Origin: a virus
Strand: one strand, 5' to 3'
DNA length: 39,551 nt
IMG/VR virus record: IMGVR_UViG_3300027969_000201
Location: 1 to 39,551 of that record
This document shows, piece by piece, positions 1-21,005 of the stretch (within the stretch, counting starts at the first letter, position 1; every line of letters starts with the position of its first letter). The notes beneath the pieces were generated by a model. It searched no databases. It worked only from the letters and a program-made list of their open reading frames with translations, and had not been told where the DNA came from. Position numbers and translations under genes: made by a program.

Positions 1-3000
1 GGGCGCACCCTTTAAGAATTGAGGCGAACTGTCCAATTGTGGATCAATGAACTTGCCCGGCAAACCCGCTCTTCTTACCACTGGAGGTGGTGGTGGAGGA
101 GGCGGAGGTGGTGGGGGCGGCGGCGGGGGAGGCGGCGGCGGAGGTGGAGGAGGGGGTGGCGGAGGTGGTGGTGGTGGTGGTGGTGGTGGTGGGGGAGGAG
201 GAGGGGGCAAAACAACAGGAGGCTCAACAATCACAGGAGGTTGAGTCACAGTTGTCAAAGGAGGTGTAACTGTAGTTGTAGGTGTAACTGTAGTTGTAGG
301 TGCAACAGTCGTTGGAGTAACAACCGTGGACAAGGGTGAAACAGTCGTGCTTGCTGGAGTAACTACGTTTGAAGGCGTAACCACATTTGAAGGGGTTACA
401 ACATTGGATGGTGTAACGACATTTGATGGCGTAACCACGTTTGACGGCGTGACAACATTTGAAGGCGTGACAACGTTAGACGGTGTAACTACATTTGAAG
501 GAGTCACAACATTTGAGGGTGTGACGACATTCGACGGTGTGTTTGTGGCAGTCGCGGCTTGAACAGCAACACTTGTTGCATCAGCTACGCTCATACCGTT
601 AGCCACAGCAACTTGCACTGCGGCGTCAATTGCAACAGTTGAAGGTGTCCCAGCTTGAACAGCGGCAGTTACGGCTGAAGTGACTGAATTGCTTACATTT
701 GCACCAGCATTTACAGACGCAGTCACAGCACTGTCCACAGCAGAGGCCGCGCTAACGCCAGAGTTGATCGCCGCCGTTACGGTTGGAGCAACTGCAGAAC
801 CTACATTCCCATTTGTTTTTGCCGTGTTATTGATTGCGGTGGTAATGGCTGTATTTACATCAGCACCAGCATTTAACGAATTACTGACACTTGTTGATGC
901 GGCGTTCGCTACAGAAGTTGCCGCCGCACTTGAAGCACCAGTAGATGGAGCTACAAAGCTAGTTGTAGTATCAACTCCTGTTGATGGCGCTTCAGCCATC
1001 GCAGTGATTGAAGTAGGCGAAGACAAAGATGCTGTGTCTGTTGCACCTGCGGTGCCTGCGGCGCTACCAAACGCCAACGATGCGGCAAGGCTTGCTGTTG
1101 CAAATTGGTTTTTTATCCCATCAAGAATAGATTTTTGGCTAGACGGATCTTGTGACATGAAGTCAATGGCTTCACTGCTGACTTGGTTTAAGCCTTGATT
1201 AGATGTGTCGCCGGGCTTTGCACCAAACTTTGCACCACTTGTCAGCAAAGACGTATCAGGCGACACCGCAGTACGATCAGCATCAGCAATCTGTTTGGTA
1301 TCTACACCACTTCCCGCTCTCGTAGCGGTAGAGATGCCACTAGAAGTTCCTACAGCGGCTGTCGTTGCAATGATGGTATCTTTGAGCGCTTTTTGGAAAT
1401 CATCAAACGAAGCGTCTTTGCTCAAACCAAACGAAGCAAATTTGTCCACACCAAATTGAGCAATTGTGGTCAACAACTCGGATGCGTTTTCATTAAGCAA
1501 ACCGCCGCCAGCTTTGGTTAAAGCATTGACAATCTCGGTTGCAGAGCCAGTGACTGGGATGCCCTTCATGATGGCCTTCATGCCGGGAATGCCCAACATC
1601 TCGCCAGCCACCTCAAGCGCAGTCATAGCCGCTGTGCGTTTTGCATTGTCTTCAACACTTAAACCAGCTTTGGCACCCTCAACCCACGAGTTGTTAGCCA
1701 CCACACCAGCGATGGTGGCAACGCCAGCCATAGGGCCACCAAGCGTCCACGCCACAGCAGACTCAATGCCTGAGGCCATACCACCAGCAACAACCTTCTC
1801 GTTTCCGACCAACTTAGACATCGATTTGTCTTTGTCGTTGACCAACAAGTCCTGAACTTTGGCAAAATTGTCTGTGTCTTGACCCATCAAGTCGCCCAAG
1901 AATTGAGCACCACGAACACCAAGACCTGCAATATCTGCGGCGGCAACATTGCCTGCAGATTTGGTTACGTCCAGAGCGGTTGGGATAAATCCCTTGTCAA
2001 AAGCTTTAAGTTCAGTAGTTCCAGCAGGAACAGCTACATCACCAGCCCCTGTGGGGTTCATTGTTGCGGTTTGCTTTAACAGTGTGTCAATGACTTTAAA
2101 TGTCATTGAATCTGCACCTTTTAACAATGTGGCTTTTTGTGCATCAGTAGCGTTAGCATATGTGTTAACGAACTGAGACATTTCATCTTTAGTCAAGTCC
2201 GCAGGATTAAACTCAGCACTACTCAAGTTTTTGTTTAACTTGTCAGTAACATAATTTGTGATTGTTGCGTTAGGAATTGTCGAGGTTGTTTTTGTGCCAG
2301 ATAAATCTGGTCGCTCTTCAGCGGTGGCAGTGCTGTAACTCTGACCATTCCATGTAAATGTTTTACCTGCTCCAAGACCTTCACGAGCAATTCTGAATGC
2401 TTCACTACGCGACGGCGCATTGGCAATGTTGCTGTTTAATTCTTCCGCTTTAACTCGGCTTAATTCTGTATTTACTTTGTTTTCTAAACCACCCACGTTG
2501 TAGGTTAGACCGCCATACGTGAATTGGGTTGCATTAGGATTTCGAGCTAAAGCCAGTTGTTGTGCTTCTTGTGGAGAGTCAGCATCAGCATTACCTACTG
2601 CCACAACGTCTGCCGCTTTACGTGCAGTAGCGGCATCTTGTGCGCCTTTTAAATCACCAAATTCAGTATCTTTTGCTACGGCTGTTGTTGTGGGCAATCC
2701 ACCAGTAGTGGTTGTATTTGCGGCAATCTTGTCAACTTCCTTCATGGCGTCCAAGGTTGCCTGTGTCTTAGTGTCAACACCGCCCAAATTAGAAGCTACG
2801 CCTGTAGTATCTCCAGCAACTTGAAGACCACTAGGTGGCGTGGTTGCATCTGCAACTGTGGTCAGGCCACTTTTTGTTGGAGTAAAGTAAGGAGAAACAA
2901 CTTGATCTGTTGTTGCATTCTTAACTTTTGCCACTTCAGCATTTGCGGCGGCAATAGCTGTGTTGATGACAATCTGATCCAATGGCTGACCTGAGATAGC

Positions 3001-4599
3001 ACCAGTCACGGCGTTGATAGCCATTTTCTTTTGTACAGGGGTCAGATCTTTGAAGCCATCAATATTGCCCATGAGTGCATCAACAGCTCCACTTGTGCCG
3101 CCAGCAACAGCACCCTTGAGCATAGCCGCACCAACATCTTGACCGCTCAGTAAAGCTGTACCGCCTGATACTGCGGCATTCTGAAACGAATTTGTCAGAG
3201 TCTTTGTAAGCTCTGGTGACAAGCCAAGATCTTTGATGAAGGATGTACCTTCTTTGAGCGCGTCAAGGCCGGGGATCTGCGCACCAGCATAGCTAATTGC
3301 GGCACTCTTGATCGCATCGCCAATATCTTCACCACTAAGCACCTTAACAGCCATGTTTGCGGCAATCTGCTCAGGGATAGACAAACCACCTGTTGCTACA
3401 GCCAACGCAATCTGACCAAGTGGGCCAAGATCGTCCATGATCTTTTTTAGATCATTAGAAGAATGAGCAGTGGTGTAAAAATACGGTTTGCCTTGTGCGT
3501 CAAATTGAACCTTGTAGGCGGTGTTTCCCTTACCTGCATAGGTTCCTGACCACGTTGCTGAGTCACCTCCGTCATAGTCTTTAATCAGAGCTTGACCAGT
3601 GATTTTGTTGCCAATGACTTTTTCTGTTCCAACAGGTGCAACGTAGGCAGTGCTATCGCTTCCAGCTTCTCCGCCATAAACAGTCTCAGTTTTAACTAAA
3701 CTCGGATCAACAGGATTTCCGTTTTGATCGGTGTAACCAATAATTTTTGGTGAGTAGAAAGTCTGGCCTTCACTGTCAGTTACCAATTCGCCTTGCCCAT
3801 ATACAGGCTGTACAGCAACATCTACTTTTTTATCAATCAATCCAACTTGATTGATGTCTGTGATACCAGCGGCGGCAAGCTGTTCAGCCATGTTCTTAGC
3901 ATTGGCTTCAGCAGAACCGAATCCCTCACCCTTCCACTTGGAGGTAAGACCTTGTCCAATAATTTGATCTGCTAATTTATCGGCAACAGTGGTGTCAATG
4001 TCGTAGTTTTGACCTTGAAGTTGAATTGTCTTTTTGTCTTCTTTGGTAGTATCTTGGACGCTGGAAAGACCGCTAACTGTAGATGTATCGACAGCTTCAG
4101 ACGTATCCAAACCACTGTATGCGGCTTCAACTTGCTCTGCAGTAATTCCAAGATCCGCCGCCGCAGTCAGTATGTCTGCCTTGCTTGCGTTTGGATCTGT
4201 AGCCAACGTATCTGCTAGCGCTTGGTTTACTTCTTCCTGCGTGTATGTTGTTTGCTGATCAGCAGAAGTATCTGTTAAGTTAGAAGTAACCTGTGATAAG
4301 CCACCCGTGACTGGAGCACTCGATGTGCCAGCAACAGTAGATGTGTCAGCGGAGGTGTCTTCAAGAACAGAATTTTTGTCAGCAACAACACTAGATAAAC
4401 CAGAAGGTGGTGCAACATAATTGTTGTAATAATTGCTTACTTCATCCGCACCAATGCTGTAGCGACTACCAATCATGTCAGCTAAACCAGCGTTGGCTTC
4501 TAACCCGCCAATACTTTGAACTACGGCGGCAACATCATCAGCCGTAGCATTAGGGTTTGCGTCAAACCACGCATCAACTTGATCTTGTGTTACTGCCAT
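1..4599 (-). CDS. Giant repeat-rich virion/ejection-type protein (partial, C-terminus off the window)
   Basis: The frame is open from ATG 4599 to base 1 (1533 codons, no stop seen), so the 3' end is missing. The first ~330 residues are acidic and Ser/Thr/Ala-rich. A motif TFTWNGQ lies at residues 747-753. An Ala/Gly-rich hydrophobic stretch at about 936-970 could cross or insert into a membrane. The C-terminal part is a stalk made of four 18-residue Ala/Val repeats (1268-1339), ten perfect TPSNVV hexapeptides (1354-1413), Thr/Pro-rich sequence, then 42 consecutive prolines (1465-1506). I recognise no enzyme domain. Size, membrane-active-looking middle and position after the neck genes suggest an internal virion or DNA-ejection protein (T7 gp15/gp16 analogue), but this is inference. 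A fibre-like or surface stalk role is the alternative. It starts 2 bases after the stop of the preceding 77-residue gene. Confidence 0.75.
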   Translation of the reverse strand, partial: MAVTQDQVDAWFDANPNATADDVAAVVQSIGGLEANAGLADMIGSRYSIGADEVSNYYNNYVAPPSGLSSVVADKNSVLEDTSADTSTVAGTSSAPVTGGLSQVTSNLTDTSADQQTTYTQEEVNQALADTLATDPNASKADILTAAADLGITAEQVEAAYSGLDTSEAVDTSTVSGLSSVQDTTKEDKKTIQLQGQNYDIDTTVADKLADQIIGQGLTSKWKGEGFGSAEANAKNMAEQLAAAGITDINQVGLIDKKVDVAVQPVYGQGELVTDSEGQTFYSPKIIGYTDQNGNPVDPSLVKTETVYGGEAGSDSTAYVAPVGTEKVIGNKITGQALIKDYDGGDSATWSGTYAGKGNTAYKVQFDAQGKPYFYTTAHSSNDLKKIMDDLGPLGQIALAVATGGLSIPEQIAANMAVKVLSGEDIGDAIKSAAISYAGAQIPGLDALKEGTSFIKDLGLSPELTKTLTNSFQNAAVSGGTALLSGQDVGAAMLKGAVAGGTSGAVDALMGNIDGFKDLTPVQKKMAINAVTGAISGQPLDQIVINTAIAAANAEVAKVKNATTDQVVSPYFTPTKSGLTTVADATTPPSGLQVAGDTTGVASNLGGVDTKTQATLDAMKEVDKIAANTTTTGGLPTTTAVAKDTEFGDLKGAQDAATARKAADVVAVGNADADSPQEAQQLALARNPNATQFTYGGLTYNVGGLENKVNTELSRVKAEELNSNIANAPSRSEAFRIAREGLGAGKTFTWNGQSYSTATAEERPDLSGTKTTSTIPNATITNYVTDKLNKNLSSAEFNPADLTKDEMSQFVNTYANATDAQKATLLKGADSMTFKVIDTLLKQTATMNPTGAGDVAVPAGTTELKAFDKGFIPTALDVTKSAGNVAAADIAGLGVRGAQFLGDLMGQDTDNFAKVQDLLVNDKDKSMSKLVGNEKVVAGGMASGIESAVAWTLGGPMAGVATIAGVVANNSWVEGAKAGLSVEDNAKRTAAMTALEVAGEMLGIPGMKAIMKGIPVTGSATEIVNALTKAGGGLLNENASELLTTIAQFGVDKFASFGLSKDASFDDFQKALKDTIIATTAAVGTSSGISTATRAGSGVDTKQIADADRTAVSPDTSLLTSGAKFGAKPGDTSNQGLNQVSSEAIDFMSQDPSSQKSILDGIKNQFATASLAASLAFGSAAGTAGATDTASLSSPTSITAMAEAPSTGVDTTTSFVAPSTGASSAAATSVANAASTSVSNSLNAGADVNTAITTAINNTAKTNGNVGSAVAPTVTAAINSGVSAASAVDSAVTASVNAGANVSNSVTSAVTAAVQAGTPSTVAIDAAVQVAVANGMSVADATSVAVQAATATNTPSNVVTPSNVVTPSNVVTPSNVVTPSNVVTPSNVVTPSNVVTPSNVVTPSNVVTPSNVVTPASTTVSPLSTVVTPTTVAPTTTVTPTTTVTPPLTTVTQPPVIVEPPVVLPPPPPPPPPPPPPPPPPPPPPPPPPPPPPPPPPPPPPPPPPPVVRRAGLPGKFIDPQLDSSPQFLKGAP
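82..207 (-). repeat. Run of 42 consecutive proline codons
   Basis: Codons from 207 down to 82 are all CCN in the open frame of the giant gene, giving 42 uninterrupted prolines. They are flanked by Glu-Pro-Pro-Val-Val-Leu on the N-terminal side and Val-Val-Arg-Arg on the C-terminal side. All four proline codons are used, with a CCA/CCT-rich core (186-160). Confidence 0.9.
361..540 (-). repeat. Ten tandem TPSNVV hexapeptide repeats
   Basis: Ten contiguous 18-base units encode TPSNVV without a single amino-acid change, while the DNA units differ at synonymous third positions (for example ACACCGTCGAATGTCGTC against ACTCCTTCAAATGTAGTT). They are in frame with the giant gene and abut the 18-residue repeats. 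Confidence 0.95.
541..798 (-). repeat. Four in-frame 18-residue Ala/Val repeats plus a partial fifth
   Basis: Residues 1268-1353 of the giant protein form units of the pattern x-A-V-x-x-A-V-x-A-x-V-x-A-G-x-x-x-x: 1268-1285, 1286-1303, 1304-1321, 1322-1339, and a shortened fifth unit to 1353. The period of 18 is compatible with an extended helical or coiled stalk. Confidence 0.7.
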
Positions 4600-4601
4600 T
4601 T

Positions 4602-4835
4602 TTATCCTGCCAAGCTCATAATGCCAACCATTTGTTCTGCCCAGTCTTGCCATGTCTCGCACATGCGCTGATCAGGAATAGCTGATTGACCAAAAAGTCC
4701 AATACCGTTAATACCATCGACCCAGTCGCGCCATCTCTCTTCTGGGACTGTACCAATGTCATTGGACGAAAACAATTCCGCCATAAGACTGCAGTACAGA
4801 TCCCATTCCATGTTGCGAGGATCGTAGGTGACCAT
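4602..4835 (-). CDS. Small conserved-type phage protein, 77 aa
   Basis: The protein is acidic and Trp-rich (WRDWVDGINGIG, TWQDWAEQMVG) with no membrane segment or signal peptide. Its ATG overlaps the stop of the gp10/nozzle-like gene (TAATG), and it ends 2 bases before the giant gene starts, so the three are probably translationally coupled. Small proteins of this look occur next to neck genes in freshwater phage contigs, but I know no function. A minor tail component or chaperone for the giant downstream protein would fit its place. Confidence 0.75.
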   Translation of the reverse strand: MVTYDPRNMEWDLYCSLMAELFSSNDIGTVPEERWRDWVDGINGIGLFGQSAIPDQRMCETWQDWAEQMVGIMSLAG

Positions 4836-11333: not shown

Positions 11334-12263
11334 TCAGAAAGTAATAGAACCAGAAGCTGTAAACTTGTAGACCCGAAAGCCTCCAGCCACAGTAATTGTT
11401 GGTGAACCTGTTGTAGCTGTTGCGGCTATGAATGTGTCTGGATAACGAAGGATGACAATACCTGAACCACCAGCGCCACCAGTTTTAGCAGTACCTGTAA
11501 TATTACCTGCGCCACCACCGCCACCACCTGTATTTGTTGTTCCAGCGCCCCCTGCCACATCTCTCGCACCCCCATTACCACCCCCACCAACACCACCCGA
11601 TGCGCTAACTCCTACGGTGTTTCCACCACCACCACCACCGCCTGCATAAGTGGTGACTGTTCCGGAAATGGCTGAAGCAATACCTGCTCCGCCGTTACCG
11701 CCGGTATAAGTTTCTGTAGCACGAAGACCAGCAGTACCTGCGCCACCACCGCCAGTGCCGGGGCCGGTTACCGCGCTAACATTAGACCCTCCGTCATTTC
11801 CTTGCCCTGAAGTCGCAGTACCTCCAACACCCGCGCCACCTCCGCCGCCTTGACCGCCACCAGAGCCGCCATTGCCGCCATTAGTAACACCGCCGCCGCC
11901 AGCGCCACCACCGTAACCGCCGCCAACAGCCACAATACGACCTGTAGTTGCCGCAGAACTTGTGGCATCAAAAACGGAATTGCCGCCCGCACCACCATTA
12001 CCATTAGACGTTGAGCCAGCAGTGCCAGCCGCACCAACAGTTACAAAGTAAGAAGCACCAGCCGTAACTCCTGCGTATCCCGCAAGCACTCCACCAGCAC
12101 CGCCACCACCGCCCATATTGGAACTGTAAGCCGCGCCGCCGCCTCCAGCACCTCCAGCAACAATCAAATACTCAACAACAGACGGCGGCAAGCTCGTCCA
12201 ATTCAGGTTTTTAACCGCCTGACTGACTTGACTCAGTGTCCACATTCCGTTGTATGTTGGCAT
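11334..12263 (-). CDS. Glycine-rich adhesin paralogue 4 (N-terminal type A), 309 aa
   Basis: The N-terminal segment (WTLSQVSQAVKNLNW, then SVVEYLIVAGGAGGGG at 29-44) leads into about 200 residues of Gly-rich sequence with runs such as GGGGGGG. The C-terminal cap has SGIVILRYPDTF and ends VYKFTASGSITF. This is the layout of Gly-rich phage tail adhesins, where polyglycine-type helices display variable loops that touch the receptor. It is the last of four paralogues in transcription order and shares its N-terminal type with the 510-residue protein. Confidence 0.85.
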   Translation of the reverse strand: MPTYNGMWTLSQVSQAVKNLNWTSLPPSVVEYLIVAGGAGGGGAAYSSNMGGGGGAGGVLAGYAGVTAGASYFVTVGAAGTAGSTSNGNGGAGGNSVFDATSSAATTGRIVAVGGGYGGGAGGGGVTNGGNGGSGGGQGGGGGAGVGGTATSGQGNDGGSNVSAVTGPGTGGGGAGTAGLRATETYTGGNGGAGIASAISGTVTTYAGGGGGGGNTVGVSASGGVGGGGNGGARDVAGGAGTTNTGGGGGGAGNITGTAKTGGAGGSGIVILRYPDTFIAATATTGSPTITVAGGFRVYKFTASGSITF

Positions 12264-12278
12264 CTCTTGCTCCGATGA

Positions 12279-12653
12279 TTAGGCTGGTGTTTCTGGAGTT
12301 GGCGCTACCACTTCAACCCAAGAGGTTGTAGGTTCATCCCATTGAAACATCTTACCTTCTACAACAGGCATAGCTGTAGGTGCGTCCCACAGGCAAGTGT
12401 TTTCGTTCAGCACCCAACTTGGGAATGGTGAAGGCGGAATAAACGCATCACGGCCTGAGTCGTAGGTAAAACCAATACCCGCGTAATTTTTACGCAGTGG
12501 TGTATCGCCAAGCTTATGCTCACCGCCTTGTGTGTTGTATGAGGTCTGAACCCAAAGTGCTGGGTCGCCCCAGTGACCAAGGTTTAAAACGTCCTGCTCG
12601 ATGACAATGACTTGCGTCACTACACCGTTCTCTACTTTTGCAAAATGGCTCAT
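12279..12653 (-). CDS. Conserved tail-associated protein between adhesin genes, 124 aa
   Basis: The sequence contains FAKVENGVVTQVIVIEQD (4-21), LRKNYAGIGFTYDSGRDAFIPP (53-74) and a Trp-containing C-terminal part (CLWDAPT, FQWDEPT). Proteins with these motifs are common near fibre genes in cyanophages and freshwater phages. Whether it is a virion part or a fibre-assembly helper is not clear. It lies between adhesin paralogues 3 and 4 with its own ribosome site. Confidence 0.75.
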   Translation of the reverse strand: MSHFAKVENGVVTQVIVIEQDVLNLGHWGDPALWVQTSYNTQGGEHKLGDTPLRKNYAGIGFTYDSGRDAFIPPSPFPSWVLNENTCLWDAPTAMPVVEGKMFQWDEPTTSWVEVVAPTPETPA

Positions 12654-12662
12654 AGTTGCTCC

Positions 12663-13814
12663 TTAGAAAATGATTGAACCAGAAGAAGTCCAAGTGTAAA
12701 TTTGATACCCGTCAGAATAACTTACTTGGGGGGAACCTGTCACTAAAGCTGGTGCTGAATTGATTTGTGGGTAACGGATGATGACAATTCCTGAACCACC
12801 GTTACCTGCTGGGAATGCGGGGCTTTGTCCGCCAAGTCCAGCACCGCCGCCGCCGCTTCCAGTATTTCCTATAGCTGATGTACCCGAAAATTGCGTAATT
12901 TGAGACTGCGATGATCCGCCAACACCCCCACCCCAAACTGGAGGAATTGCTAAACTTTTAGATGCATTGCCACCTACTCCGCCACCACCACCACCTGCGT
13001 AAAATACACGTAAACCTGTGATTGTGGAGCAGGTTCCTGCGCCCCCCACGGTATTAGCGCCATTACCATTAACTGCGGTATCTCCAACCGACCCCGAACC
13101 ACCCCCGCCACCAGCAGGGAAATTAGCGCCATCAACGCCTGCACCTCCAGCAAACCCTTGCCCAGCAGTTCCAGCGCCTCCGGCTCCTGCGGCATTGACT
13201 CCGCCACCGCCTCCAGAACCACCAGCACCACCCGCCGCAGGCCCACCTGCACCATACCCACCACCTGTAGTAGATATAGAGCTAAATACAGAACTTGAGC
13301 CTTGTGAACCATTACCACCGTTACCGCCAGCGCCGCCTGCTCCAACAGTTACAGTCAATGCAGTACCAGCCGCAACAGAAAAATTAGCCGCAGTTAAAAG
13401 CCCACCAGCGCCGCCGCCACCTCCGTTGTAGTAAGCAGTCGCACCACCACCACCACCGCCAGCAACAACCAAATACTCAACAGTATCAGGAGCGCCAGCA
13501 TAAGGATTAAATGCGCGTTGGGTTACAGCAGTGTGAGTGCCGGAACCTGTGCTATTGGTGTATGTAGTAGCAGACCCGCTAATCGTTGTAGAAACTTGGC
13601 AGGTGTTTACGCTAACGCTAATAACGTAGTAGTTTGTGTTTAAAGAAATGCCCGTTGGCAAAGTGCCAGTGGTTGTGAACTGCACTGGAGTGCCAACAGG
13701 TGGCGTTGCCGCCGTAGAACCGAATGTAAGGTCTGGTGTATTTGCAAAAGTGACCGTGCCAATCGACACGTTGATGTTCTGCCCTGCAATAAAACCACCC
13801 AGTCTATTACTCAT
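12663..13814 (-). CDS. Glycine-rich adhesin paralogue 3 (N-terminal type B), 383 aa
   Basis: It begins SNRLGGFIAGQN, a type B start like the 304-residue paralogue. An extra beta domain at about 14-98 has the LPTGISLNTNYYVISV pattern. Then comes the shared DTVEYLVVAGGGGGG start, the Gly-rich body, and the C-terminal cap (SGIVIIRYP, then IYTWTSSGSIIF). The added N-terminal beta domain is absent from the other three. It is probably a distal tail adhesin. Confidence 0.82.
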   Translation of the reverse strand: MSNRLGGFIAGQNINVSIGTVTFANTPDLTFGSTAATPPVGTPVQFTTTGTLPTGISLNTNYYVISVSVNTCQVSTTISGSATTYTNSTGSGTHTAVTQRAFNPYAGAPDTVEYLVVAGGGGGGATAYYNGGGGGAGGLLTAANFSVAAGTALTVTVGAGGAGGNGGNGSQGSSSVFSSISTTGGGYGAGGPAAGGAGGSGGGGGVNAAGAGGAGTAGQGFAGGAGVDGANFPAGGGGGSGSVGDTAVNGNGANTVGGAGTCSTITGLRVFYAGGGGGGVGGNASKSLAIPPVWGGGVGGSSQSQITQFSGTSAIGNTGSGGGGAGLGGQSPAFPAGNGGSGIVIIRYPQINSAPALVTGSPQVSYSDGYQIYTWTSSGSIIF

Positions 13815-13823
13815 GTCTATTCC

Positions 13824-15356
13824 TTAGAAGGTGATTGAACCACTGGATGTCCAAGTGTACACACGGTTCTTGTAGCCCGTACCTGTGAATGGAGACAGTT
13901 GGTTCCAACTGCCAGCAACAGTAGTTGATGCGGGAGCAAAACTGTTTGTAGAACCGTCTGCAAGATATGCCCCAGAAACTAAATTCATTAACAGCTGAGT
14001 TCCCGATACAGCAGTCAAAGGTGTTGTGCTTGGCGTAAAGTTGCTTGTGTATAAAGCTGTGCCAACAACATATCTAAAATTTGATATGTATCCGTTTGTG
14101 TAGTACCCGTTATAGTCGCCCAATCTTCCAATTGTCATTGGTGTAGAGCCAGATGTTACTGAACCAGCAACAGTAACTGTCCCTACTGATGTTCCATTGA
14201 CATACAAAGTCATAACGGTACTGTTTCTAACAAGGGCAATGTGATACCAAGTGCTGATGTTCATTGTTGTTGATGATGAAATAGTGTAGCCTGTGCCGCC
14301 CACAAAAACTTCACCATTAAATAAATTGCTAGCATCTATACCAATATCAAATATTCTTGCACCTAAACTTGAATTATTTTGTCCAGCAAATACTTGCGAT
14401 CCACCAGCAGACCTATAGGCCCACATTTCAATTGTAAAATTGCCTGAACCTAAATTAAATGCTGAGTTTGATGCATACTGTATAAATTGCGTACTGCCGT
14501 TAAAAGCAATACTACCCGACCCACTTGTACTTACAGTTGGTGAACCTGTTGTAGATGCCGCCGCCGCATATACGTCTGGGTATGAAACGATGACAATGCC
14601 AGAGCCGCCAGCGCCCCCAGTGCCAAGACCACCACCACCACCGCCCCCACCTGTATTTGCAGTGCCCGCAGTGGCGGCAGTGCTTGAACCACTCTCACCT
14701 CCCGCACCTCCACCACCTACGCCGCCAGAACCTTTAACTCCAACATATGCGCCACCACCTCCACCACCAGCGTAGGCAGTTACAGTTCCGTTAATAACAG
14801 AAGCAATGCCACCTCCGCCATCACCCTTACCTCCAGTAGTACCAGTTTTTGCGTTAAGACCAACAGTCCCTGCGCCGCCGCCTCCGCCACCATGTCGATA
14901 CGATGTGCTGTCAGAAATACCAACACCGCCAAAATTACCTTGGCCCGAAGTCCCTGCGCCGCCCGTAACACCGCCCTGCCCAGTACTGCCGCTACCCCCG
15001 CCAGAACCGCCAGAACGACCCAAAGTCTCTGCTACTGCCGCATCAGAAGCTCCGCCACCGCCACCGCCAACAGCAGATATTGCGCCAAATACAGAGTTTG
15101 AACCATTTGCACCAAAAGTGGTTATACTGCCCGCGCCGCCAGCACCAACAGTAACTAACAGAGCTTGTCCGTTTGGTACTGGATCAATGCCTAGCAACAA
15201 ACCGCCAGCGCCACCTCCACCACCACCGTTGTAGCGACCGCCACCACCGCCTCCAGCCACAGCTAAGTATTCAACTGCGGGTGGTTTTTGAGCGGGCCAG
15301 CCACCTTGCTGAACAGCTTGAACAACTTGTTTGAGATTAAATAAACCGTTTGCCAT
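13824..15356 (-). CDS. Glycine-rich adhesin paralogue 2 with inserted LamG-like domain (type A), 510 aa
   Basis: The type A start (LFNLKQVVQAVQQGGW) and AVEYLAVAGGGGGG open a Gly-rich body to about residue 258. Residues about 282-458 form a concanavalin/laminin-G-like jelly roll: FNGSTQFIQY, NFTIEMWAYRS, TWYHIALVRNSTVMTLYVNG, ISNFRYVVGTALYTSNFTPS. This domain lies inside the C-terminal cap, splitting TTGSPTVS from NRVYTWTSSGSITF, segments that are adjacent in the paralogues. LamG-type domains often bind sugars, so it may extend receptor choice. Confidence 0.85.
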   Translation of the reverse strand: MANGLFNLKQVVQAVQQGGWPAQKPPAVEYLAVAGGGGGGRYNGGGGGGAGGLLLGIDPVPNGQALLVTVGAGGAGSITTFGANGSNSVFGAISAVGGGGGGASDAAVAETLGRSGGSGGGSGSTGQGGVTGGAGTSGQGNFGGVGISDSTSYRHGGGGGGAGTVGLNAKTGTTGGKGDGGGGIASVINGTVTAYAGGGGGGAYVGVKGSGGVGGGGAGGESGSSTAATAGTANTGGGGGGGGLGTGGAGGSGIVIVSYPDVYAAAASTTGSPTVSTSGSGSIAFNGSTQFIQYASNSAFNLGSGNFTIEMWAYRSAGGSQVFAGQNNSSLGARIFDIGIDASNLFNGEVFVGGTGYTISSSTTMNISTWYHIALVRNSTVMTLYVNGTSVGTVTVAGSVTSGSTPMTIGRLGDYNGYYTNGYISNFRYVVGTALYTSNFTPSTTPLTAVSGTQLLMNLVSGAYLADGSTNSFAPASTTVAGSWNQLSPFTGTGYKNRVYTWTSSGSITF

Positions 15357-15362
15357 AGAACC

Positions 15363-16277
15363 TCAGAATGTGATAGTGCCAGAGGCAAAAAACTTATACA
15401 CGCGCCATCCGCTTGCAATGTACGTTTCGGGGCCACCTGTTGTTGATGCGGCGGCTATTTGATAAGAAGGGTAGCGGATAATCACTACGCCAGAACCGCC
15501 TGCTCCAACGTTGCCAACTGCTGGCCCACCTGATCTTCCGCCTCCGCCACCACCGCCCGTATTTGCTAGTCCGTCTTGACCATTAGCTGTTGAGGTATTT
15601 GAAGTGTAAGAGCTAGCACCACCAATGCCACCGCCATTACCCCCGCCACCCGCACCCCCTAAACCGCCCATTTCTGGGTTGTTAGAATAAACATCACCGC
15701 CACCACCACCGCCACCAGCGTAAAACAATCTTACGCCAGTAATTGAAGAAGCAATTCCAGTTCCGCCATTGCCAGCGCGTTGGCCTGTACTAGCATCTAT
15801 TTGAACGCCGGGCAAACCTACGCTTCCAGCACCGCCTCCGCCACCAGACGCTCTTGCGGCGTAAGTTCCGCCATTATTGCCTTGTCCGGGTGTTCCCAAT
15901 GTGGTTCGGTCGCTTGAATCGCTTGCTTGAGAGCCTCCAGCACCTGATCCACCAGATGTACCCGCGTAATAGTAATTCCCACCCCCGCCACCACCAACTG
16001 TAGAAATGTTTCCAAAGACGGAACTTGTCCCTTTTCCACCAGCATTTCCACCACCGTTACCAGCAATACCGCCACCACCAATTGTGACGGTAATAGATGT
16101 TCCGGGTGTAATGGGATACCCCATAGCGGTTAAAAGACCGCCAGCACCACCTCCGCCAGCACCAGCCGCCGCGCCGCCACCTCCGCCAGCCACGACAAGG
16201 TACTCCACCGTTGTTACAGGTGAATTGATGCCGTCAAGCCCGACAGAAAGAATGCCGCCAACTCTATCAAGAGACAT
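15363..16277 (-). CDS. Glycine-rich adhesin paralogue 1 (N-terminal type B), 304 aa
   Basis: It starts SLDRVGGILSVG, matching the 383-residue paralogue, then TTVEYLVVAGGGGG, a Gly-rich body with variable inserts, SGVVIIRYP, and the cap ending VYKFFASGTITF. It is the first adhesin transcribed and lies 6 bases before paralogue 2. Confidence 0.83.
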   Translation of the reverse strand: MSLDRVGGILSVGLDGINSPVTTVEYLVVAGGGGGAAAGAGGGGAGGLLTAMGYPITPGTSITVTIGGGGIAGNGGGNAGGKGTSSVFGNISTVGGGGGGNYYYAGTSGGSGAGGSQASDSSDRTTLGTPGQGNNGGTYAARASGGGGGAGSVGLPGVQIDASTGQRAGNGGTGIASSITGVRLFYAGGGGGGGDVYSNNPEMGGLGGAGGGGNGGGIGGASSYTSNTSTANGQDGLANTGGGGGGGRSGGPAVGNVGAGGSGVVIIRYPSYQIAAASTTGGPETYIASGWRVYKFFASGTITF

Positions 16278-19931: not shown

Positions 19932-21005
19932 TTACCTTGTGTACACACCTATGTTCGGAGCAAAGTAGATTGGCGACTTATCACGCTCTTCTTGCTCCGC
20001 CATGATGAAGTACTTCTCAGCTTGATTTTCAAGATAAGTAATACGTGCCAAGTCAACTTGTGGCAACTCCAAGCTCATCTGGTGAGCCAGCATGCTCTGA
20101 ATTGCCAACATCCAACGATCAGGGATAGCCAATTGACCACTCAAGGCACCAACATCTTCAATCTGGCTTGAATACCACACCGTCATTTGGTAGAAGGCGT
20201 CAGAAGGCGTAGGCCACAAAGTGATCGTAGCCTGAGGAATTGTGCGGTTCAACCAAAACTGAAACGGTTGATTAGCTGTGAAATTTTTGTTTGGCAGGTT
20301 TGTGTAGTCGTCGCGGTTCAAGCGAGCCATCGTGATTTCAGTGGAGTTAACTCCAAGGTACCACTCACGCACAGCCAAAGTTGTTCCACCAGTAGCAAGA
20401 AAACGGTAGTACTGGACGTTTGCGCCGGGGTCTATATCTTCCCAAATCCACTGTCCGTCAGTCACGGTGACGCTTGTACCCGTGTACAGCGTAGTCCATG
20501 TAGTGCCGTCAGTAGATGCTTGGAACGCATAACTCCACGTTGCGCTACCACCACCAGCCACATAAGGCATAAAGCCAATAGAGCCGATGTATTGAGGTTG
20601 GTTTGTACCGTAGTTAACTACAAAATTGCCGTTTGCAGTTGTTTGTTGGCAATACGTTGCAATGTCGCCATCATAGATATTGGCAACAGTTCCGCCTGCC
20701 GATGTCGTATAACCACCCGTAGGACGTGTCATCCAGCGGTATAGAGCGTTTAAAACGTCATTCCCACCCACAGGTAGCAGGTACTCGTATTTATTCGGCT
20801 GGAGGCCGTATACGTACTTCTTGATAGCAAAGTACTGGATACCTTGATTGATCAAGTTGCTTAAAAGGAAAAACAACGATTGTTTTGCGCTCAAAACCTG
20901 CTCAGAAGTCAACTCCTCAGCCAGCTTACCGCACCGACGTGCTCCGTTGTCAATCAGGTTTTGAACCGTGACGACTGTTTGACCGACTGTGCCGCTGTAT
21001 GCCAT
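19932..21005 (-). CDS. P22 gp4-like head-tail connector with inserted discoidin-like domain, 357 aa
   Basis: Residues 1-92 (TVQNLIDNGARRCGKLAEELTSEQ, then FFLLSNLINQGIQYFAIKKY) and 218-357 (ITMARLNRDDYTNLPNK, FWLNRT, ITLWPTP, IPDRWMLAIQSMLAHQMSLE) read as one continuous gp4-type connector. Between them, at about 95-218, sits a F5/8 type C (discoidin)-like domain: NIYDGDIATYC, YIGSIGFMPY, YAFQASTDGTTWTTLY, VQYYRFLATGGTTLAVREWYLG. The connector ring binds beneath the portal; the insert would project outward. It lies between basic GG-motif genes and the fibre genes. Confidence 0.78.
   Translation of the reverse strand: MAYSGTVGQTVVTVQNLIDNGARRCGKLAEELTSEQVLSAKQSLFFLLSNLINQGIQYFAIKKYVYGLQPNKYEYLLPVGGNDVLNALYRWMTRPTGGYTTSAGGTVANIYDGDIATYCQQTTANGNFVVNYGTNQPQYIGSIGFMPYVAGGGSATWSYAFQASTDGTTWTTLYTGTSVTVTDGQWIWEDIDPGANVQYYRFLATGGTTLAVREWYLGVNSTEITMARLNRDDYTNLPNKNFTANQPFQFWLNRTIPQATITLWPTPSDAFYQMTVWYSSQIEDVGALSGQLAIPDRWMLAIQSMLAHQMSLELPQVDLARITYLENQAEKYFIMAEQEERDKSPIYFAPNIGVYTR

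Follow-up and report, generated by a model that had tools for sequence, protein, structure and literature searches.

What keeps a peptide unchanged through ten tandem copies while the DNA of every copy has changed? The question is raised by a 39,551-base contig of an uncultured bacteriophage (the window, by which we mean the whole stretch of DNA analysed), in which the hexapeptide TPSNVV is repeated within a large minus-strand open reading frame (ORF). An earlier note had described ten perfect units with diverged synonymous codons at 361-540, and this description is exact. The ORF is divided as follows.

1-4662, minus strand: the large ORF, coding for a putative virion protein; GTG at 4662; 1554 codons seen; truncated by the contig start.
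541-861, minus strand: helical repeats with an 18-residue period, approximately residues 1268-1374, recognized by autocorrelation and by AlphaFold.
361-540, minus strand: the TPSNVV array, residues 1375-1434; ten tandem units, codon-scrambled, residues invariant.
208-360, minus strand: a Thr/Pro/Val-rich linker, residues 1435-1485, containing an SPLS motif.
82-207, minus strand: a polyproline run of 42 residues with mixed codons.
1-81, minus strand: the start of the C-terminal part, beginning VVRRAGLPGKFIDPQLDSSPQFLKGAP.

The ten units are uninterrupted and all perfect, and the array was detected independently by Tandem Repeats Finder, with periods of 18, 36 and 54. The adjoining helical repeats are Ala-rich and have a lag-18 autocorrelation of 0.31. 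The same protein is complete, at 1865 amino acids, in contig L002, which is practically the same phage (99.64% identity to the window over 10,689 bases) and carries an identical array. The polyproline run is 43 residues long in L002 and at least 31 in a second relative, L003, whose contig ends within the run. The conserved C-terminal module proper lies past the contig start of the window and is visible in L002; the SPLS motif also occurs near this module in several relatives.

At the DNA level, all ten units are distinct, with the differences confined to third codon positions: none of the 120 first and second positions varies, while all six third positions do. Any two units differ on average at 4.02 of 18 bases, against 4.06 expected from random synonymous codons in a simulation based on the phage's own codon usage in ten ORFs (2.5-97.5% range, 3.58-4.40). 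Serine is always encoded by TCN, and asparagine by AAT in seven of the ten units as opposed to 35% in the ten ORFs, a bias that fits descent from one ancestral unit. A higher-order unit of 54 bases was considered and rejected, as units three apart are no more alike than expected at random (p 0.27 in the window and 0.24 in L003); one of 12 lag tests gave p 0.024, uncorrected (lag 4, L003). Mixed codons, to about the background level, were also found in the low-complexity arrays of three more distant relatives (L041, L044 and L081), so that scrambling is not alone a sign of special function. The array of L054 is less mixed, with ACC making up 21 of its 24 Thr codons.

The nearest independent relative is L003, whose gene is 85.9% identical to that of the window at the DNA level. 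Its array also has ten units, and no residue out of 60 differs from the window, as opposed to 23 of the 60 codons, all synonymously (dN 0, dS 0.64; for the whole aligned gene, dN 0.058 and dS 0.41). Because L003 has the same ten units in other codons, the array is neither a chance product nor an artefact of a single assembly. Units with the same index differ by 2.3 bases on average and other pairs by 3.9, a value as low being reached in 29 of 100,000 permutations; the best matches thus join same-numbered units, and the ten-unit array predates the split between the two phages. The earlier note had called for a comparison of dN/dS and copy number in related contigs, and had taken amino-acid drift or a frame change as the outcome that would count against selection on the peptide. 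Neither is present in this one close independent relative. Read in the other five frames, the same differences would change 23/59, 23/59, 19/60, 9/59 and 23/59 residues, compared with 0/60 in the sense frame. An opposite-strand gene was likewise rejected: the antisense frame reading VTT[FL][ED]G, although open, is the one with the 9/59 changes.

How strong must this constraint be? When two lineages were simulated at matched silent change, zero residue change had a probability of 4% for an omega of 0.05 and 0.25% for 0.1. With a ten-unit star at 0.7 substitutions per site, the probability of no residue change was 2% at an omega of 0.05, although a star tree exaggerates independent time and this bound is therefore optimistic. 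An array omega above about 0.05 is unlikely. Three neighbour genes have dN/dS values of about 0.05, 0.08 and 0.06 between the window and L003; constraint on the array is no weaker than on these genes, and given 60 codons its excess is not large. Purifying selection on the TPSNVV peptide, as the earlier note proposed, is well supported by these sequence comparisons with one independent relative.

The constraint is not peculiar to the hexapeptides. While residue-changing codons are fewer in the array (0/60) than in the rest of residues 1-1480 (129/1383, p 0.005), the flank at 1270-1374 has only one in 105, and the longest residue-invariant stretch runs from 1289 to 1447, 159 residues covering most of the helical repeats. 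Strict conservation is thus not confined to the array. Silent divergence is uneven along the gene, making a single gene-wide rate inappropriate: four-fold sites differ from L003 at 10/92 in the N-terminal part, 21/50 in the array, 4/43 in the linker and 16/33 in the polyproline run. The sharp fall from the array (361-540) to the linker (208-360) may reflect mosaic ancestry.

Is ordinary selection on a peptide then enough? Scrambled arrays might simply be those that persist and assemble, being free of slippage or collapse. The codon-mixed arrays of L041, L044 and L081 are in keeping with this idea, as is the somewhat higher four-fold divergence of the TPSNVV array relative to residues 221-1374 (Fisher p 0.053). 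Low-complexity runs also contain the end of the L003 contig and the start of the L053 contig, breaks that would be natural at places difficult to assemble. Nonetheless, instability explains scrambling and not the absence of residue change, given that the same DNA yields 9-23 changes in other frames, and we regard this explanation as unlikely.

The earlier note further suggested that the repeat is a functional stalk or binding site, and that it be modelled together with the 18-residue repeats. An AlphaFold model built from six aligned sequences bears out the repeats, which form six helices of 13-16 residues (pLDDT mostly 79-94), and leaves the array structureless. Over most of the TPSNVV blocks the pLDDT is about 31-38, with no helix or strand, and model residues 115-200, comprising the array together with some of the linker, are structureless at a pLDDT below 50; a low pLDDT does not establish disorder, and the array was covered by just two near-identical sequences. 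A model of the C-terminal part (23 sequences) has a mean pLDDT of 58.6; near residues 197-290 it shows a strand-strand-helix-helix element in duplicate, which belongs to the final stretch of approximately 155 residues. Neither model matched a solved structure in the PDB at E 0.001 or better. In its low sequence complexity (one hexapeptide ten times over) and its want of secondary structure, the latter as a prediction only, the array resembles a disordered linker.

An ordered stalk or beta-solenoid, in which hexapeptide coils build a rod, finds some encouragement in the six-residue period with its paired valines and in the adjoining period of 18 residues. However, each unit contains a proline, no strands are predicted, the pLDDT is 31-38 over most of the array, and no Pfam family of the hexapeptide repeats that form left-handed beta-helices was matched up to E 0.1. 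We consider such a rod very unlikely.

How widely is the motif distributed? Relatives were scanned for the whole protein, for three units of TPxxVV, for two units with S/T and V/I/M allowed, and for the helical repeats, and TPSNVV was found only in L002 and L003 (L014, L085 and L086 are the same contigs, and L040 is L002). The three-unit scan returned 30 stretches, 28 of which have other repeats, such as (TPTPVV)n and (TPPPVV)n, without TPSNVV. A cellular origin was rejected, the two-unit pattern having no match among cellular genome contigs. Searching with the C-terminal part gave 43 loci, one of them L002, and TPSNVV was present in none of the other 42; these were found by their C-terminal module, several are near-duplicates of each other, and many from about L058 onward match the last part only, without a comparable layout. 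A single coding unit of the form TP-x-N-[VI]-[VI] was absent from all four wider records searched whole.

Among wider-family members of comparable layout, other low-complexity sequence takes the place of the array. Ahead of the C-terminal module, L041 (52% identical over its length) has Asn/Ala/Thr runs, L053 and L054 have (PVT)n, L044 has 33 prolines, and L043 and L046 have Pro-Val runs. Such replacement is what a linker would be expected to show. Very cysteine-rich low-complexity runs (CCTCCTCC-like) occur upstream of the same module in L071, L074, L075, L077 and L079. Unlike these preceding sequences, the last approximately 155 residues (KGHNPEFITG...SPLDYLKMAK; L002:11300-11776) are conserved across the family far above the rest of the protein. 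At L042:7260-7634 and L048:7251-7625, and upstream of these, are 18-residue Ala/Thr/Val helical-repeat arrays far longer than that of the window, with further lags near 22 and 40 residues.

The structureless prediction, together with the absence of the motif from all 42 wider-family loci, leaves the proposal of a functional stalk or binding site unsupported. The array is probably, on the strength of the structural model and the family comparison, an extended, largely unfolded and lineage-specific spacer in a large putative virion protein. It would connect the 18-residue helical repeats to the Thr/Pro linker, the polyproline run and the very conserved C-terminal module, and may serve to determine the length, extension and solubility of the connection between two parts of the protein that might have to thread through or reach out as DNA is delivered. 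The units would have originated through tandem duplication long ago, and selection on the peptide would have purged residue changes while the codons diverged. As arrays of identical codons would be unstable, the silent divergence would both record age and protect copy number. Against a spacer, a generic one should accept conservative changes, and none is found in 60 codons. The conservation is that between the window and one independent relative.

The array is a protein segment of an ordinary kind, if an unusually strict one. Like the low-complexity linkers of prokaryotes and phages (PMC6821194), it is a short Pro/Ser/Thr-rich repeat in a large phage protein at a spacer-like position, but as far as the accessible part of that source describes them, such linkers differ from these ten units, which are residue-identical at saturated silent divergence. 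The same part of the source reports Val and Asn to be under-represented in low-complexity regions, whereas these two residues make up half of the TPSNVV unit. Residue drift in near relatives, a common though not strictly defining trait of linkers, is likewise not seen (0/60 against one relative, L003). The protein repeats described by Persi, Wolf and Koonin (PMC5120217, accessible part) are similarly conserved between orthologues; there, copies inside one protein are reported to diverge faster than their orthologous counterparts do, whereas the TPSNVV copies show zero residue divergence within the protein. The robustness statement in that part of the source covers repeats longer than 10 residues, and a hexapeptide falls outside that range. 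The array thus offers a clean natural case in which silent saturation with zero residue change reveals selection on a low-complexity peptide. Moreover, it shows that a segment can be strictly conserved within one lineage although the wider family has something quite different in its place, so that conservation among near relatives is no warrant for assuming a conserved binding site.

Why a spacer would permit no residue change remains a puzzle, and a bolder reading deals with it directly. Every TPSNVV might act as a short linear motif, each docked at one site of a partner that is itself repetitive. The partner could be an oligomer of a tail or ejection protein, or else the helical repeats of the same protein, and the units would then have to stay alike. 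Docking of this kind accounts for the zero residue change in any unit and for the same copy number in L003. The adjacent region is, moreover, a predicted helical-repeat solenoid whose top fold match, 7udk, is a designed helical repeat in complex with a tandem-repeat peptide, although an E of 0.1 is far from significant. On the other hand, the motif is missing from the 42 wider-family loci, the model containing both segments gives the array low confidence only, and the invariant stretch reaches well past the array. We therefore think docking rather improbable; if true, it would offer a way into the arrangement of large ejection-block proteins.

What kind of protein, then, carries the array? Upstream, in the direction of transcription, lie terminase, portal, adaptor and stabilisation-type genes, the last matching phrog_3287 (1.2e-21). 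Downstream, as read in L041, are two genes without a family match, followed by a third that encodes an endolysin-type domain (phrog_873, 4.4e-14). In MW202545.1, which has the C-terminal module too (at 61.9%), a stabilisation protein is encoded upstream and a transglycosylase-type protein downstream. In the window, L041 and MW202545.1 alike, the gene thus occupies the ejection-block position between tail-stabilisation and endolysin- or transglycosylase-type genes. The part of the protein within the window had no convincing family match in PHROG or Pfam, ejection proteins included, and the next gene matched a DNA ejection protein (phrog_4287) weakly, at E 0.063. Judging from gene order, the large, putatively virion protein probably belongs to the DNA-ejection gene block. 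Tape measure proteins were also considered, since part of the C-terminal module recurs in phrog_6090 (45 residues, E 2e-06) and in a Caulobacter phage GB2A protein annotated as a tape measure (53 residues, 56.6%). This identity is not supported: the homology does not extend beyond the short C-terminal motif, the remainder is without a match, and the gene context resembles that of a short-tailed phage.

The ejection (internal virion) proteins of podoviruses are typified by gp14-15-16 of T7, whose counterparts in P22 are gp7-20-16. Like these, the window protein is large and mosaic, and its gene lies close to tail-stabilisation genes and precedes an endolysin- or transglycosylase-type gene (PMC8954989). 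Unlike them, it has no sequence match to those families, and its repeat-rich C-terminal half is a feature that the accessible part of PMC8954989 does not describe for podovirus ejection proteins. In T7 gp16, the same part of that source describes an extended 'molecular tape'. The array of the window could be a ten-register docking tape, each hexapeptide engaging one of a set of identical partner sites during genome delivery. In any one lineage the sites would hold both the sequence and the number of units constant, and other lineages would have replaced tape and partner surface together. We rate such a tape quite unlikely; were it true, the array would be conserved unit by unit, the opposite of the usual faster divergence between copies.

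Two further observations concern other minus-strand genes of the window. Four glycine-rich proteins encoded at 11334-16277 share a VEYL[VA]VAGG start and are apparently paralogues. The adaptor-like protein encoded at 19932-21005 has, midway along, what looks like an F5/8 type C (discoidin-like) domain, matched in Pfam at E 2e-05, just below the curated cut-off.
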